NCBI GenBank assembly: GCA_009886755.1
Contig: QXYU01000050.1
Coordinates: forward strand, 1-64,000
DNA: 64,000 nt
Source: Flavobacteriaceae bacterium
Lineage (GTDB): Bacteria > Bacteroidota > Bacteroidia > Flavobacteriales > Flavobacteriaceae
Reading direction: 5' to 3'
Part shown: positions 10,232-17,989 of the stretch, piece after piece
Layout of the letters: the number at the start of each line of letters is the position of its first letter
Position numbering within the stretch: position 1 is the stretch's first letter
The notes under the pieces: generated by a model
The model's input: the letters and a program-made list of their open reading frames with translations, nothing else
Database searches by the model: none
Told to the model about the DNA's origin: nothing
Position numbers and translations under genes: made by a program

Positions 10232-13200
10232 ATGAAAAAAAAACTAACGTTTTGCTTAATTTTTGCCTTGCCGCTTTTTGGGTGGGCGCAAGACACTGAT
10301 GGTGATGGCCTTACCGACGCGGATGAATTAACTATTGGAACAAATCCAAATGTATTTGAAGACAATGATTCCGACGGTATCCCCGACCACTTTGATCCCG
10401 ATGATGACAATGATGGTATTCTAGATGCTGAAGAATGCGGTTATCTCAATGGATCCATAGTTAACGGAGGCTTTGAATCTACGGTCCCTTGTGATGGTAT
10501 TTTTGATGAGTCGATTGTTTTGGGCTGGTCAACTACTGCTTCGGACCAAAAAATTGAAATTTGGTGTACGTCAAGGACACTGTCAGGGTTTACATATTAT
10601 GCCAATTCAGGTTCTAGGCTGTCGGAAATCAACGCCAATCAAATAGCAGCCTTATATCAAGAAATTGCAACCACACCGAATCAGTATATGATCTGGTCGT
10701 ATTCTTTACAAGGCAGAAATCTCAACGAATCCATGCAAGTCAGAGCGGGTCAAACAACCACCACTGCGGTTGTATTGAGCACTTTGAATGCAATTCAAAA
10801 TACATGGCAGCGCCAAACAGGAATCTATCAAGTGCCTGCCGGACAAACATCTACCGTTTTTTTATTTGAATCGATTACGGGGGGAGGTACAGGGAATCTG
10901 ATTGACGATGTATCTTTTGATCAGCCTGCCAATGCTTGTACTTTGGATACCGATGGCGATGGAATTCAAAATAGTTTTGATACCGATGCCGATGGAGACG
11001 GTTATCCAGATAGTGTTGAAGGAACCAATGACGATGATGGAGATGGCATCGTTAATTTCTTAGATCCTACGGATTTTGGTTTCGCGGTTTCCCCCACATC
11101 AATTACCGTTTCAGAATCGCCTACAACACAAAGCTTTACTATTGTTCTTACTCGGATCCCTACTTCTAATGTGGTATTATCCCTAGTGATATCAGATAGC
11201 AGTGAAATTTCATTGAGTACCACAACACTGACTTTTACCACAGTTACTTGGTCTTCCACACAAACCGTAACTGTAACTGGAGTTGATGATTTTGTTCGGG
11301 ATGGGGACATTCTTCAGGATTTAATCATAACAGTTGTCGATAGTCTTTCGGATGACAATTACGATACAGTATCGGATACATTGATTTCGGTAAGAACTCA
11401 GGATAATGACGATGAGCTCTGTGCTACCATTCCCTTTAGCACCACTGATTTTAATTATATCGCTAGTGCCTCGGCAAGTTCCAGTATTGAAATATCATTA
11501 ACCACCCCAACCTTATGGGTGAATGGTGCGGCTTGGTGTGTTCGAAAACTAGACTTAAGAACGGATTTTAACTTGCAGTTTGATCTCTTTTTTGGACAAG
11601 ATGGAGTAGGTCAATATGGAGCTGACGGAATTGCGTTTGTAATACAAAACATTGACACTGGACAAGGAACTTTTGGGGAGGGAGTTGGCTATGGAGGTAT
11701 CACCCCCTCCTATGCGATAGAAATTGACACCTATCAGAACACTTACGACCCCCCAAGCGACCATATCGTTTTTGTGCCTAACGGACAGTACTCTAGTACG
11801 CTGTCAGCACCAGACCTGCAAACGATTAATAATGTAGAGAATAATCAATATCACAACATCTCCATTTCATGGGATTATTCCGAATCAAAACTTTCCTATC
11901 AGTTTAATCACAGCGACGGCACGACTTATACAAATTCAAAAACCATCGATATAATCAACACCATTTTAAATAGTGATGTTGGTTATTGGGGCTTTACATC
12001 TGCCTCTGGAGGTTTCTACAATGCACATAATGTAAGGTTTACAGCCTCTTCTACCATCTGTTTGGCTAGGGAAATTCTTGCGCCCACCGGTAGTAGTTCT
12101 CAGTCTTTTTGTTTGCCGGGAACTCCTACTCTAAACGATATGGTTCTGAATGTAGAAAACGATTCTGCAGGGCTTCCCTACAATATTGTTTGGTTTACTA
12201 CGGCAACAGGAACAACTCAGCTGCCTTACAACACTCCTTTGGTAGAAGGGACAACCTATTACGCAGAGGCGGCCAATTTTTCAGACCCTACGAATGTTAA
12301 CTATCGTCAAAGTGTAACGCGAATCCCTGTTTTGGTGTCCTTGATTGATGCGGGTTTTTCAGTGGTCACACCCACTTTGAGTTTGTCAGAAGGTGGCGGA
12401 ACGACTTCCGTTGGCTTAGCCCTAACGGATCAGCCCAGTAGTACTGTTGTGATTAATCTGACAGCAAGCACCGCTTCGGATGTGAGCTTTAGCATAAGTA
12501 GTTTCACTTTTACGAATGCCAACTGGAATGTAACACAAACGGCAACGGTCACCATCGTTGATGATAATGTTGCTGAAGGAACCGAAACGGTCAGTATAAG
12601 CCTTTCGGTTGCTGCCGCTTTGAGTGATGATTGCTACGACTCCATGCCTGACCAAATTTTTGCACTTTCGATTGCAGACAATGATACGGCAGGATACACG
12701 GTAACTGCCGTAAGCGGAACCCTCCAGGAAAACAACCCTACAACACGAAGCATTCAGGTAAGCTTAACAATCGAACCATCGACCAATGTAATTTTTGATT
12801 GGCAGAATGGCGATACTACTGAGGTGGGATTAAGTGCTAGTAGCATGACATTTACACCTTCAAATTGGAATATACCACAGACTTTAACCTTGAGTGCTGT
12901 TGATGATATCATCGTTGATGGAAGCCAAACAAGCTCTTTAGTAATTAGTGTGAACGCAGCTTCACCCGCTATTTTTTCAGCTTTGGCTAGTAAAACACGA
13001 ACGGTGATCACCCGCGATGATGACAATGTAGGGGTATTGATGTCTCCGATGCAAGGTGCTTTAACAGAAGGAAGTGCTGCCACGGCAAGCTTTACGGTTG
13101 TTTTAAAATCTGTTCCTACAGGAACTGTCACCATCAACCTGAGTTTGAGTAATTCGGGTCAGGTGTCATTGAGTACCACCACCTTGGTGTTTACGCCATC

Positions 13201-14908
13201 CAATTGGAATGTATCCCAAACGGTTACCCTTAGTAGTATTGATGATTCCCTGTTGGAGGGCACCCAAACCACAACCATCACTTTAGCCATTGACCCAACC
13301 TCGCCAGCTGTTTATGCTGCGGTGGCGGATACCTATGCAACCGTTACAACATCGGACAATGAGACAGCAGATATAATTGTAAACAGTATTGATAATTCCA
13401 CGGGAGAAGATGGGGATACGGGAAGTTTTAGTATGCGTCTTACTGCGATCCCATCGGGAGACGTCGTCATTAACCTGTCCTCCTCCAATATCGGAGAAGG
13501 AAGTGTACAAAGTACGGTTCGCTTTACGCCGAGTAATTGGAGTGTTGATCAAATTATAGTAGTGACAGGAGTAGATGACAATCCACCGGTAATGGATGGT
13601 ACAATCCCATATCAAATAATAACAGGGAATGTAAGTTCTACAGATTCCTTGTATAATACTCTGAATGGAACTACACTTACTGATCTTACATTTTACAATA
13701 AAGACAATGAAGTTCCAGGGATTCTTGTAACTGCTCTTGCAAACGATTATACTGCATCTGAGGCAGGTGATACAGTTACCTTGCAATTCGAGCTGGTGAT
13801 TCAGCCCCTTGGTGGGGCAGATGTAACGCTTCCTTTGCGTATTGATTCTGGAGCTGATGAACTTCAATTGGGTGTCGCTACGATTACCATTAGCAATGCA
13901 GATTGGAATAATCCATCGGCCAATCAGGTAATCGTTACTGGCTTGGATGATCTGATTGTGGATGGAGATCAGCAGGGCATTGTCATTACTGGAGATCCCA
14001 CTTCCTCAGACACAAACTATAACAATTTGACTGCTGCAGATGTGGCTGATCCAACCCTTATCAATCAAGATAACGATGTGGCTGCACTTTTCTTTTCCAT
14101 TCCTGAAACGGTTAGTGAATCGGGACAAACAACTTCTTTTACCATCACTTTGGCAACGGAAATTGTCAATTCAGTGGTACTATCCTTAGAAGTGATGGAC
14201 GACACAGAATTGTCACTCATCGCATCGAATGTACTTTTCGATGCTAGCAATTGGAATGTACCAAAATTGATTAGGGTCTTTGGAGTTGATGATCCCGATC
14301 TAGACGGTGATATCACATCGGTAATCGAGATTTCTGTGGTCTCGACCACTACGGAAATACCCTATAAAAGTTTGATTCCTTACGTTATGGCAATCACAAA
14401 CTTTGATAATGAAGTCACTAACGTGGCTACCGACACCAGCGGGGAAGGAAGTGGTTCCACTACCGAAACTAATGGAGGAGAAAGTGGTTCAGTTACCGAA
14501 ACAATATCCGAGGTTGCCAGTCCAACAACTCCATTAACTCCTGAAGAGCCCGAAAGTCCAAGCGAACCGGTAACCAACCCCATTGTAGAGGCAGTGAAAA
14601 AGGAAATGGAAGTACATCAAAATATTCAAATACCTACTGCTTTTTCACCAGATGAAAACGGCTTGAATGATGGCTGGGTTATTGAAGGATTGGAAAAATA
14701 TCCCAATAATCGCTTGGAAATATGGAGTCGATGGGGCTTCAAAGTGTATGAAAGTGTCAATTATCAAAATGATTGGATTGGGCAATCAACGATCGGATTT
14801 CGAGTTGGTAATAATTCGGAACTCCCCGAAGGCACCTATTTTTACAAACTCATAGTGGAAGAACGCGCGATCTTCCGAGGCTATATTTATTTAAAAAGGA
14901 TACCATGA
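10232..14908 (+). CDS. Giant adhesin with lectin-like, Calx-beta-like repeats and type IX (type B) C-terminal domain
   Basis: A 1558-aa cell-surface protein. In order it has a signal peptide ending near GWAQ20; thrombospondin type 3 calcium repeats (about 21-67); a jelly-roll-like region; more TSP3 repeats (about 237-285); one Calx-beta-like repeat (287-395); a legume-lectin-like domain (about 397-608, with ADGIAFVIQ and AIEIDTYQ); an Ig-like segment (about 612-700); six further Calx-beta-like repeats (706-1394); a Ser/Thr/Glu/Pro linker; and a gliding-motility-associated C-terminal domain (about 1464-1558, PTAFSPDENGLNDGW then WGFKVYES). That last domain is the type B signal for the type IX secretion system. 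The stop overlaps the porP/sprF-like start by ATGA, matching the sprB-sprF style of locus. It is likely an adhesin or glycan-binding surface fibre. Confidence 0.9.
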   Translation: MKKKLTFCLIFALPLFGWAQDTDGDGLTDADELTIGTNPNVFEDNDSDGIPDHFDPDDDNDGILDAEECGYLNGSIVNGGFESTVPCDGIFDESIVLGWSTTASDQKIEIWCTSRTLSGFTYYANSGSRLSEINANQIAALYQEIATTPNQYMIWSYSLQGRNLNESMQVRAGQTTTTAVVLSTLNAIQNTWQRQTGIYQVPAGQTSTVFLFESITGGGTGNLIDDVSFDQPANACTLDTDGDGIQNSFDTDADGDGYPDSVEGTNDDDGDGIVNFLDPTDFGFAVSPTSITVSESPTTQSFTIVLTRIPTSNVVLSLVISDSSEISLSTTTLTFTTVTWSSTQTVTVTGVDDFVRDGDILQDLIITVVDSLSDDNYDTVSDTLISVRTQDNDDELCATIPFSTTDFNYIASASASSSIEISLTTPTLWVNGAAWCVRKLDLRTDFNLQFDLFFGQDGVGQYGADGIAFVIQNIDTGQGTFGEGVGYGGITPSYAIEIDTYQNTYDPPSDHIVFVPNGQYSSTLSAPDLQTINNVENNQYHNISISWDYSESKLSYQFNHSDGTTYTNSKTIDIINTILNSDVGYWGFTSASGGFYNAHNVRFTASSTICLAREILAPTGSSSQSFCLPGTPTLNDMVLNVENDSAGLPYNIVWFTTATGTTQLPYNTPLVEGTTYYAEAANFSDPTNVNYRQSVTRIPVLVSLIDAGFSVVTPTLSLSEGGGTTSVGLALTDQPSSTVVINLTASTASDVSFSISSFTFTNANWNVTQTATVTIVDDNVAEGTETVSISLSVAAALSDDCYDSMPDQIFALSIADNDTAGYTVTAVSGTLQENNPTTRSIQVSLTIEPSTNVIFDWQNGDTTEVGLSASSMTFTPSNWNIPQTLTLSAVDDIIVDGSQTSSLVISVNAASPAIFSALASKTRTVITRDDDNVGVLMSPMQGALTEGSAATASFTVVLKSVPTGTVTINLSLSNSGQVSLSTTTLVFTPSNWNVSQTVTLSSIDDSLLEGTQTTTITLAIDPTSPAVYAAVADTYATVTTSDNETADIIVNSIDNSTGEDGDTGSFSMRLTAIPSGDVVINLSSSNIGEGSVQSTVRFTPSNWSVDQIIVVTGVDDNPPVMDGTIPYQIITGNVSSTDSLYNTLNGTTLTDLTFYNKDNEVPGILVTALANDYTASEAGDTVTLQFELVIQPLGGADVTLPLRIDSGADELQLGVATITISNADWNNPSANQVIVTGLDDLIVDGDQQGIVITGDPTSSDTNYNNLTAADVADPTLINQDNDVAALFFSIPETVSESGQTTSFTITLATEIVNSVVLSLEVMDDTELSLIASNVLFDASNWNVPKLIRVFGVDDPDLDGDITSVIEISVVSTTTEIPYKSLIPYVMAITNFDNEVTNVATDTSGEGSGSTTETNGGESGSVTETISEVASPTTPLTPEEPESPSEPVTNPIVEAVKKEMEVHQNIQIPTAFSPDENGLNDGWVIEGLEKYPNNRLEIWSRWGFKVYESVNYQNDWIGQSTIGFRVGNNSELPEGTYFYKLIVEERAIFRGYIYLKRIP
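12349..14415 (+). repeat. Six tandem Calx-beta-like protein repeats inside the adhesin
   Basis: Six diverged units of roughly 110-120 codons each carry the signature FTPSNWNVxQTVTL followed by DDxxxDG and end in an (D/N)DN-type acidic boundary. A seventh unit lies apart at about 11085-11415. The repeats are clear at protein level but weak at DNA level, so this is an old duplication series. Confidence 0.75.
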
Positions 14909-15849
14909 TAAAAAAAGTAAAATCCTTGCTGCTGTTGCTTTTCTTGTTGTTGGTGTCTCATCGCGGTCATGCTCAGCAAGAAGCTACTTTTGCGCAATTT
15001 ATGTTTGCACATCAGTTACTTAATCCTGCCTATGTGGGGGCCAAGTCCTATACCAATCTAACCGCCTTGCGTCGTGATCAATGGGTGGGTTTTGAAGGGG
15101 CGCCTGTTACCCAAGCATTGGCAGTAAATGGTCGGATCAAAGGAAGAAAATTAGGTTGGGGGTTAAGTGTTTTAAATGACAATATTGGTCCTGTGGTTAA
15201 TACTTCTGTAAGCTTGGATGCGGCTTATCATTTACAAATCAACGAAGCTGGGCATCAGCTGGCGGTAGGAGTCAAGATTGGAGCTCAGAATTATAACATT
15301 GATACTTCGATGATCCAAACGATCACACCTGGGGATGCCGCTTTTGTAATGGGAGACAGTGGAGAATTGATTCCCAATGTCGGCTTTGGGGTCTATTATC
15401 ATCATACTCGATTTTATGTTGGCTTTTCCATTCCGCGGTTGCTGAATAGTGACCTTTATGAGGTGTCGAGACATGCCTATATGATATGTGGTGCAATTTT
15501 TAATCTAACTACTGATTGGAGTATCAAGCCCAGTATTTTGCTTAAGCAATCCGAAGGTTCTCCCTTAGGCTACGATTTCAGTACTCTACTCGTATATAGT
15601 AAACGTTTCTGGTTGGGGCCACGACTAAGGAGTGCGCTGGAAGCACCGTTGCCAGATTCTGAATTTGGTGGATCTTACGGGCTATTGGGTGGAGTTCATT
15701 TGTCACCCAACTGGAGTGTAGGGTATGCTTATAATACAGGTTTGGGAGACCTCAGTCCCAGTTTTAATTCCGGTAGCCACGAGATCATGATTCGATTTGA
15801 TTTTAACGTTAGAGACCTTAGAACGCTTCGTTCACCCAGAATATTTTGA
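14905..15849 (+). CDS. Type IX secretion membrane protein PorP/SprF family
   Basis: A 314-aa outer-membrane beta-barrel of the PorP/SprF family. A signal peptide (MIKKVKSLLLLLFLLLVSH, cleaved near GHAQ) precedes the family-typical start of the mature protein: FAQFMFAHQLLNPAYVG, then RDQWVGFEGAP. SprF-type proteins are needed to secrete or attach their neighbouring type B cargo, here the adhesin whose stop it overlaps. The downstream OmpA-like gene starts 1 nt after this stop, so all three are probably made together. Assignment to PorP or to SprF specifically is not possible from one locus. Confidence 0.92.
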   Translation: MIKKVKSLLLLLFLLLVSHRGHAQQEATFAQFMFAHQLLNPAYVGAKSYTNLTALRRDQWVGFEGAPVTQALAVNGRIKGRKLGWGLSVLNDNIGPVVNTSVSLDAAYHLQINEAGHQLAVGVKIGAQNYNIDTSMIQTITPGDAAFVMGDSGELIPNVGFGVYYHHTRFYVGFSIPRLLNSDLYEVSRHAYMICGAIFNLTTDWSIKPSILLKQSEGSPLGYDFSTLLVYSKRFWLGPRLRSALEAPLPDSEFGGSYGLLGGVHLSPNWSVGYAYNTGLGDLSPSFNSGSHEIMIRFDFNVRDLRTLRSPRIF

Positions 15850-15850
15850 T

Positions 15851-17989
15851 ATGAGAAATTTATGTATTTGTATCGTTTTATTGAGCTGTGTGAAAGGTTT
15901 TTCACAGCATCCCTCGGTTGCTTGGGGCGATTACTATTTTTTCAATCAAAACTATCCCAAAGCAATTGATATTTATATTAATGCTGGAGACAGCTTGGAA
16001 TTGACAACTCAGCAGAATTTGGCCAAATCTTATCTAGCCATGGGTGATGAAAAAGAAGCCCGTCAGCTATTTAAAGCAATTGTGACCAACCCCATGGCGG
16101 ATATTGAAGACTATTTTCGATATGCACAGCTCCTAAAAGACAATCCCAAGTTGGCTGAAGAATACCGCGACAAAGCGGCGCAGCTCCCAGTATCGTTTCA
16201 GAGTTTATGGGCAGAAGACAGTTTGCTCTACAAAAAAAGGTTCATGGAACTTCGTTATGAAGCTTTGCAGCCCTTAGCATTGAATACCCAAGAAGCAGAG
16301 TTTGCTGCAACACTTATTCCGGGAGGTAATGATTCCCAACAACTGCTATATGTTACTTCTCGTAAGATGGAAGGGGAGAAAAAACGGCTCCGACGAATTT
16401 TGTCAAAACATCCAGTCTATAATCTAGCACAAGCAACTATTGATTCGACTCAGACAACCGGTCCCGTTCGTTTGTTGCAATTAGGGTTGAATACCGTTTT
16501 GCAAGACGGCCCAGTAGCCTATGATGCCGAAACAAAAACCCTATACATAACACGTTCTGCCACCCAAAAAGACGAACAAGGTGTTATCCATTTGGAGTTG
16601 ATTCAGACAAATTACCCCAAACAAGAAAATCGATCCCCAACAGTATTGTCACTGAATATGCCGGGCTACAGCACATTGCATCCCAGTTTTGATGTCAAGG
16701 GACAGCGTCTTTTTTTTGCTAGTGATCGCCCGGGAGGGTTTGGAGGGTATGATCTGTATGTGGCCCAACGGAAGCCTGACGGCGGGTTTGAATCTCCGAT
16801 TAATTTGGGAAAAGACATCAATACGGAAGTCAATGAAGTATTCCCCAATTGGGTGATGGGGCAGTTGTCTTATAGTTCGAATAGTGAAGAAGGAATCGGT
16901 GGGCTTGATATATGGTTGGCGGAAGAGGTGATGATCAATCGCTGGGTAAAAACAGCTCTTGGAGCTCCATACAATACAGTTGCTGATGATTTTGGATGGA
17001 CGCTCCATAAGACTTTTGGTTTGCAGTCATCCTCTAGAGAAGGCGGTAAAGGCGATGATGATTTATATGCTTTTGAGGCGACTCCAGATTTGACAGGGGT
17101 AGCAGATGAGTACGAATACTTTGTGTCTGACACCTTGGTGGTATCAGCTCTTGGGGTGCATCATAATGATGAGGAATTGATGCGGCAACAAAACCCTTTG
17201 CATCGTTTTTTTGATCGCTCTTACGAATTGACAACACCCCCTAAAGGAAGTTTCAAATGGAATCAGAATGGGTCGTTTTTGTATTTTAACCCAGTGGCGG
17301 AAAGTATCCGCGATTCATTTACATATCAGATTCAAACTGACTATGGGAAATCAGACCCTATCTTGGTTTTACTTCATCAAAAAAACAAACCTATTTCAGG
17401 CTTGTCAAAAGAAATACGAACAACATTTGAACCTATTTTTTTCAATTACGATCGCGCCGATTTGTTGACACAATACAAAGACCGATTGGATCGTGTTGTG
17501 AGTGCTTTGAAACAATATCCTAAAATGGTCGTTCGGGTAAACTCTTATACAGACAGTCGTGGATCGGAGACGTATAACCTAGAACTATCTAAAAGCCGTC
17601 ACCAAACAATGATTCGTTACATCGATGAAGCATTGAATGAGACTGGACGTGTTGTAGGGGTTGCGCTTGGGGAGTCTAAAGTCCCTGAAAACAATCGAAA
17701 AGATTATGTACTCTATGGAGGAAGTTATGGCGCCAAAGAAAACGCGCTCGAAAGGAGTGAGCAATTCATCCAAGCTGGGGAAACATCCATAGTCGAAAAA
17801 ACTCCAAATGGATTATATCGTGTCCTTGTGGGAACTTATGAAAGTTTTAAGGACGTAAAAGCGGCATCGGAACGTCTGGAATCAGAAACAGGGATCGGCT
17901 TATGGATTGATGAAAGTCCGGTGAACAAGAGACCTGACGAGTTTCATAGCAAACAACGTCGTGTGGAGTTTGAAGTTCTAAACTACTAA
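15851..17989 (+). CDS. OmpA-family protein with TPR, PD40-like propeller and an inserted SPOR-like domain
   Basis: A 712-aa envelope protein. A signal peptide (to about residue 20) is followed by TPR-like helices (about 25-130), a PD40/WD40-like propeller with RLFFASDRPGGFGGYD (about 150-410), a sandwich segment, and an OmpA peptidoglycan-binding domain starting at Phe526 (FFNYDRADLL, then VNSYTDSRGS). The usual last OmpA strand, QRRVEFEVL, appears only at the very C-terminus (about 702-710). Between it and GESKVPENN lies an extra segment (about 617-690) matching a SPOR repeat: YVLYGGSYG, then YRVLVGTYESFKDVKAASE. ATG 15851 is preferred over the longer frame from 15797 because it begins the signal peptide. 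The gene is third in the adhesin-PorP operon and probably anchors the surface complex to the cell wall. Confidence 0.9.
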   Translation: MRNLCICIVLLSCVKGFSQHPSVAWGDYYFFNQNYPKAIDIYINAGDSLELTTQQNLAKSYLAMGDEKEARQLFKAIVTNPMADIEDYFRYAQLLKDNPKLAEEYRDKAAQLPVSFQSLWAEDSLLYKKRFMELRYEALQPLALNTQEAEFAATLIPGGNDSQQLLYVTSRKMEGEKKRLRRILSKHPVYNLAQATIDSTQTTGPVRLLQLGLNTVLQDGPVAYDAETKTLYITRSATQKDEQGVIHLELIQTNYPKQENRSPTVLSLNMPGYSTLHPSFDVKGQRLFFASDRPGGFGGYDLYVAQRKPDGGFESPINLGKDINTEVNEVFPNWVMGQLSYSSNSEEGIGGLDIWLAEEVMINRWVKTALGAPYNTVADDFGWTLHKTFGLQSSSREGGKGDDDLYAFEATPDLTGVADEYEYFVSDTLVVSALGVHHNDEELMRQQNPLHRFFDRSYELTTPPKGSFKWNQNGSFLYFNPVAESIRDSFTYQIQTDYGKSDPILVLLHQKNKPISGLSKEIRTTFEPIFFNYDRADLLTQYKDRLDRVVSALKQYPKMVVRVNSYTDSRGSETYNLELSKSRHQTMIRYIDEALNETGRVVGVALGESKVPENNRKDYVLYGGSYGAKENALERSEQFIQAGETSIVEKTPNGLYRVLVGTYESFKDVKAASERLESETGIGLWIDESPVNKRPDEFHSKQRRVEFEVLNY

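Follow-up and report, generated by a model that had tools for sequence, protein, structure and literature searches.

A complete SPOR domain is nested in the C-terminal OmpA domain of a 712 amino acid PorE-like protein, which is encoded by an open reading frame at positions 15851–17989 (forward strand) of the window, i.e. the whole 64,000-nucleotide stretch of DNA analyzed here, from a marine member of the Flavobacteriaceae. The SPOR domain interrupts the loop that joins strands 3 and 4 of OmpA, and this nesting is confirmed by sequence, by relatives and by predicted structure. The explanation favored (probability about 0.6) is that of a PorE-like tether in which the nested SPOR is most likely a second, glycan-directed contact. 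The domain architecture is new; the kind of anchor is already known.

The gene order in the operon is adhesin, PorP/SprF, PorE-like. The ATG start codon of the PorE-like gene at position 15851 is 1 nt past the PorP stop codon. The features are as follows:

10232–14908, forward strand: adhesin-like substrate of the type IX system, combining an L-type lectin domain with a type B CTD (PF18483, 1e-33; PF13585, 3e-22; TIGR04131, 1e-11)
14905–15849, forward strand: PorP/SprF-family outer-membrane barrel, the likely partner (PF11751, 7.8e-67; TIGR03519, 3e-71)
15851–17989, forward strand: the 712-aa periplasmic PorE-like protein, composed of a putative signal peptide, a TPR region, a beta-propeller, an Ig-like domain and the OmpA domain that encloses SPOR
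15851–15907, forward strand: putative signal peptide, residues 1–19, with a cleavage-like FSQ (sequence and N-termini of relatives)
15917–16246, forward strand: TPR-type helical region, residues ~23–132 (Pfam TPR at 54–94, below cut-off; helices in the model)
16298–17077, forward strand: beta-propeller, PD40-like, residues ~150–409 (Pfam PD40, 0.005; Foldseek propeller matches including TolB, 4r40)
17105–17380, forward strand: Ig-like (Big_9-like) domain, residues ~419–510 (weak Pfam Big_9, 0.056)
17426–17674, forward strand: first part of the OmpA domain, residues 526–608, b1-a1-b2-a2-b3, with DAP-binding residues D568/N576/R583 (Pfam, alignment, model)
17696–17905, forward strand: nested SPOR domain, residues 616–685 (Pfam, b-a-b-b-a-b order in the model, and insert profile, see below)
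17936–17986, forward strand: closing helix and strand of OmpA, residues 696–712, ending KQRRVEFEVLNY (helix 696–702 and strand 704–711 in the model; aligns with the end of Pal)

An earlier inspection of this DNA (termed here the sequence-only reading) had placed a type IX adhesin next to the protein; the Pfam and NCBIfam matches agree that the adhesin, and PorP as well, share the operon. The L-type lectin domain of the adhesin is above cut-off, and a Calx-beta match is weak and below cut-off. In a promoter and terminator scan of the operon, the promoter matches were little different from those in shuffled sequences and were set aside. The putative signal peptides end in FSQ, FAQ or LGQ, and the N-termini of relatives showed no lipobox cysteine at any conserved place. 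A Foldseek search with the full-length model returns mostly propellers, and the Pfam Big_9 signal is likewise weak in relatives (0.019–0.048), sister proteins included. The nearest NCBIfam models are T9SS_PorE (NF052230; 195 bits, cut-off 600) and CHU_0125_OmpA (NF053607; 206 bits, cut-off 620). The protein is thus far under the cut-off for PorE proper and is named PorE-like. The host genome (97% complete) has four PorP/SprF genes and, by the search made for them, a single PorE-like gene, the nested one. GldM is found in all seven genomes checked, including that of the host.

Pfam places OmpA at aa positions 530–616 (E = 4.9e-8; 33.7 bits, gathering cut-off 27.2) and SPOR (PF05036) at 616–685 (E = 5.6e-8; 33.4 bits, cut-off 21). 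When the C-terminal fragment is scanned alone, the SPOR E-value is 6.5e-9. There are 94 residues from the “GE” of OmpA strand 3 (position 608) to the “RR” ahead of the last strand (position 703), against 20–25 at the same place in the closest sisters, and the net insert is thus approximately 70–74 residues. The figure of about 85 residues given by the sequence-only reading is close to these values, and the motifs that it quoted are indeed the two SPOR half-repeats.

The structure of residues 520–712 was predicted with AlphaFold2 using 24 aligned sequences (mean pLDDT = 91.5; pTM = 0.71). The elements follow in the order b1-a1-b2-a2-b3 of OmpA, then b-a-b-b-a-b of SPOR (in model numbering, strand 100–107, helix 110–122, strand 128–131, strand 137–144, helix 147–161 and strand 166–169), and finally the helix and strand that close OmpA (the strand at 185–192, model numbering). 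The full-length model agrees on the C-terminal strand, at residues 704–711. An alignment with VIA-align covers 108 of the 108 residues of Acinetobacter Pal, with model positions 6–191, at 1.7 Å (Z = 17.6), and further members of the Pal family among the top-ranked matches show Z values of 16–17. The best Foldseek match for the C-terminal domain is the C-terminal domain of PorE (6TOP), in a search that was filled by OmpA matches. In the predicted structure, the stretches before and after the insert are one OmpA domain of complete fold with the C-terminal strand in its sheet. A tandem arrangement was rejected in favor of nesting, as the tail strand is conserved downstream of the insert and matches the last part of Pal in the alignment. 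This bears out the proposal that an OmpA domain starting at residue 526 is interrupted by SPOR in its last loop and is closed by QRRVEFEVL. Structure prediction had been put forward as the check on it, and here the SPOR element order is present and the closing strand belongs to the OmpA sheet. All the computational tests that could be applied to the nesting favor it.

Among solved structures, a profile built on the inserts matches the SPOR domains of CwlC (5.8e-6) and FtsN (2.8e-4), entries 1x60 and 1uta. The host insert, searched as a single sequence against PDB sequences, did not find a SPOR domain. PPR repeat proteins were also matched by the insert profile, however these are multi-repeat scores in which single repeats are insignificant, and they were disregarded.

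The nesting is seen in 15 loci in total; it recurs in 14 loci beyond the window, and the sequence-only reading had proposed to look for it in other PorP/SprF operons. In 397 genomes from the same family, a profile search separates two groups: seven matches extend through the entire nested region (E = 1e-46 to 1e-107), and OmpA-only matches follow after a clear gap, at 1e-33 and weaker. Sister loci that were read added one more nested case (genome G567) and seven short-loop proteins. A scan of GTDB genomes yields 14 nested loci, plus insert-free sisters. Those hosts that have a name belong to uncultured Flavobacteriales and include Ca. Arcticimaribacter forsetii and other Ca. Arcticimaribacter, and in the genus of genome G392 the nested protein is carried by 12 of 19 genomes. 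There was no nested match in 394 other genomes sampled across the phylum. Of the loci from the family search, 14 were read, nested and short-loop ones together, and in each a PorP-like gene adjoins the PorE-like gene; with the exception of the short G549 stretch, they also have a long adhesin-like gene close to PorP.

The GE-to-RR spacing is 92–115 residues in nested proteins, 20–25 in sisters and 18–21 in outgroup PorE-like proteins (the pattern missed two nested rows, and the 94 residues of the window protein were counted by hand). The insert is precisely present or absent between closely related proteins, and these are in adhesin-PorP-PorE-like operons where flanking DNA was read. The nested protein of G567 (L103:9001–9624) has approximately 23 extra linker residues ahead of SPOR, which shows that the loop tolerates more insertion.

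It is extremely improbable that the architecture is an artefact, i.e. an assembly chimera or a chance profile match. Nearly all of the sequences come from metagenome bins, however the same architecture is present in 15 loci of many separate assemblies, and these include the 2.0-Mb single-chromosome record of Ca. Arcticimaribacter forsetii. In addition, when seven more nested C-terminal regions were scanned, all seven passed the Pfam SPOR cut-off (E = 1e-9 to 3e-4), and a chance SPOR match is therefore ruled out.

In a protein tree built with the insert region left out, nested and short-loop proteins share one clade (100/100), and at least four changes are required to explain the nested state. 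A single clade of nested proteins on the body tree is rejected (p-AU = 3.8e-11). The inserts as one clade stay compatible with the data (p-AU = 0.33, from few columns). Both results agree with an early gain followed by several losses, or with transfer of the insert; repeated independent gain of the insert is also conceivable.

PorE binds a stem-peptide fragment via D576, N584 and R591 (PMC7192894). In an alignment, D568, N576 and R583 of the protein described here correspond to these residues with equal spacing, and they are invariant. By homology to PorE, wall binding is a well based prediction for the OmpA domain. RlpA recognizes denuded glycan through Q270 and an arginine patch; Q270 is highly conserved, though not universal. 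The RlpA Q270 mutants could not be tested, and data from FtsN and DamX mark the position as important (PMC6895207). The equivalent of this glutamine is V, I, F, N or Y in the 15 nested SPOR domains and Gln in none. The same position is I or V in 27 of 27 SPOR domains of the family's ~300–460-aa class, and a few other SPOR domains keep Gln, e.g. that of a 139-aa protein in the host genome. Since the Gln is also lost in other SPOR domains accepted by Pfam, its loss concerns the ligand and not membership in the SPOR family. The basic contact R309 of RlpA is often kept in nested SPOR domains (R657 is its counterpart here, by alignment only), and the R309–R311 patch is kept only in part. Thus, of the two wall-binding modules envisaged by the sequence-only reading, the OmpA module agrees with the PorE contacts, and recognition of denuded glycan by SPOR is disfavored by the missing Gln and stays conjectural.

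Through PorE, PorP and a type B CTD protein are connected with the wall (PMC9143113). In F. johnsoniae operons with a PorE-like gene, the substrate appears to be statically anchored (PMC12618676). A role as anchor is well based by homology to these systems. In the proposed mechanism, the TPR and propeller would keep hold of the type B CTD adhesin by way of its carrier, the PorP/SprF barrel, as in PorE-PorP-PG1035 of P. gingivalis. The OmpA domain would grip the peptide stem of peptidoglycan through the conserved DAP-binding residues, as the PorE crystal structure suggests. SPOR would most likely contribute a second contact, to the glycan of that wall, which would reinforce or position the adhesin in its static anchorage. 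The chance that SPOR makes some glycan or wall contact is put at about even. Given that the key Gln is missing, specificity for denuded (septal) glycan has a lower probability.

SPOR may instead be a protein-protein or spacer module. It is possible, though doubtful, that it no longer binds sugar and acts as a rigid spacer or as a docking surface (e.g. for PorK/N, PorP or a wall enzyme) in a loop that tolerates insertions. The loss of the canonical Gln and the partial basic patch agree with this, as does the much greater divergence of the inserts compared with the OmpA part. Several sister proteins are without the insert, which is thus dispensable for anchoring. However, inserts of diverged species retain the fold and the GS[FY] half-repeat motif, and often also the Arg of the second half, and SPOR has also been recruited at the N-terminus of other PorE-like proteins (see below); both features argue against this reading. 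A specific form of the main explanation, and an unlikely one, is that SPOR sends the adhesin complex to division sites via denuded glycan, in which case the adhesin would be shown at the septum or new poles. Binding of denuded glycan is the defining function of characterized SPOR domains, yet the glutamine contact marked as important by the FtsN and DamX data is missing in every nested member (PMC6895207). Also unlikely is a dual wall reader, in which OmpA on peptide stems and SPOR on glycan at the same spot would dock adhesins on a particular wall state, e.g. newly split, septal or polar.

Four other PorE-like proteins (L214:1152–3854, L215:2412–5126, L216:112–3198 and L217:2939–6004) have SPOR near the N-terminus and OmpA at the C-terminus. 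Their open frames of 901–1029 aa encode SPOR (two copies in L216), a propeller, a carboxypeptidase-regulatory-like domain and the terminal OmpA. L215 and L216 adjoin PorP and a type IX CTD adhesin, and L217 is directly after an adhesin gene. SPOR and OmpA are thus together in one PorE-like protein, but SPOR is not nested, and the insert tree sets these SPOR domains apart from the nested ones. SPOR was therefore joined to PorE-like anchors at least twice. The N-terminal SPOR domains in other PorE-like proteins, two of them in such operons, suggest that SPOR is useful to this type of anchor.

In the searchable literature, whose scope leaves out most subscription-journal papers, there is no prior link between SPOR and the type IX system, and the present one would be the first within it. 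Two families known for wall binding are joined, one inside the other, at the loop that is bulged in PorE. If SPOR binds, the site of type B adhesin anchoring on the wall becomes directly testable, with sisters that carry or lack the insert as natural controls.

Among known systems, PorE of P. gingivalis (PDB 6TOP, NF052230) has in common with the protein described here the TPR-propeller-OmpA order, the peptidoglycan-binding residues, and PorP and type B CTD partners. Unlike it, PorE has a carboxypeptidase-regulatory-like domain, where a weak Ig-like (Big_9-like) domain is third here, and no SPOR. PorE also has a lipid anchor, which the protein described here may be without, and a helical bulge is present between the strands where SPOR is found here (PMC7192894). 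PorE-like proteins of Flavobacterium operons (e.g. Fjoh_3950) are likewise encoded together with a type B substrate and a PorP/SprF-like protein (PMC12618676). Other homologous PorE-like proteins of the family have a loop of 18–21 residues at the nesting point. The C-terminal domains of E. coli Pal and OmpA show a complete fold match (Pal-family Z = 16–17.6), but are without an inserted domain.

The SPOR-type proteins found elsewhere in the host genome (L181, L183 and L184) are an HU-CCDC81-SPOR protein without Gln, the 139-aa protein, whose SPOR has VQVG, and an Amidase_3 protein whose SPOR-like tail scores below threshold. In G392 (L226:916–2248) two reading frames overlap; the first terminates with TSP3-like repeats and the second with an HU-type SPOR, and a CTD-ending frame is adjacent. 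The overlapping frames are possibly a broken or frameshifted gene. The HU-CCDC81-SPOR proteins of Flavobacteriaceae display the same SPOR subclass as the nested domain (I/V-x-GS[FY], no Gln), but carry it as a free domain at the C-terminus of a protein with an HU domain, unlike the SPOR that is nested here within OmpA.
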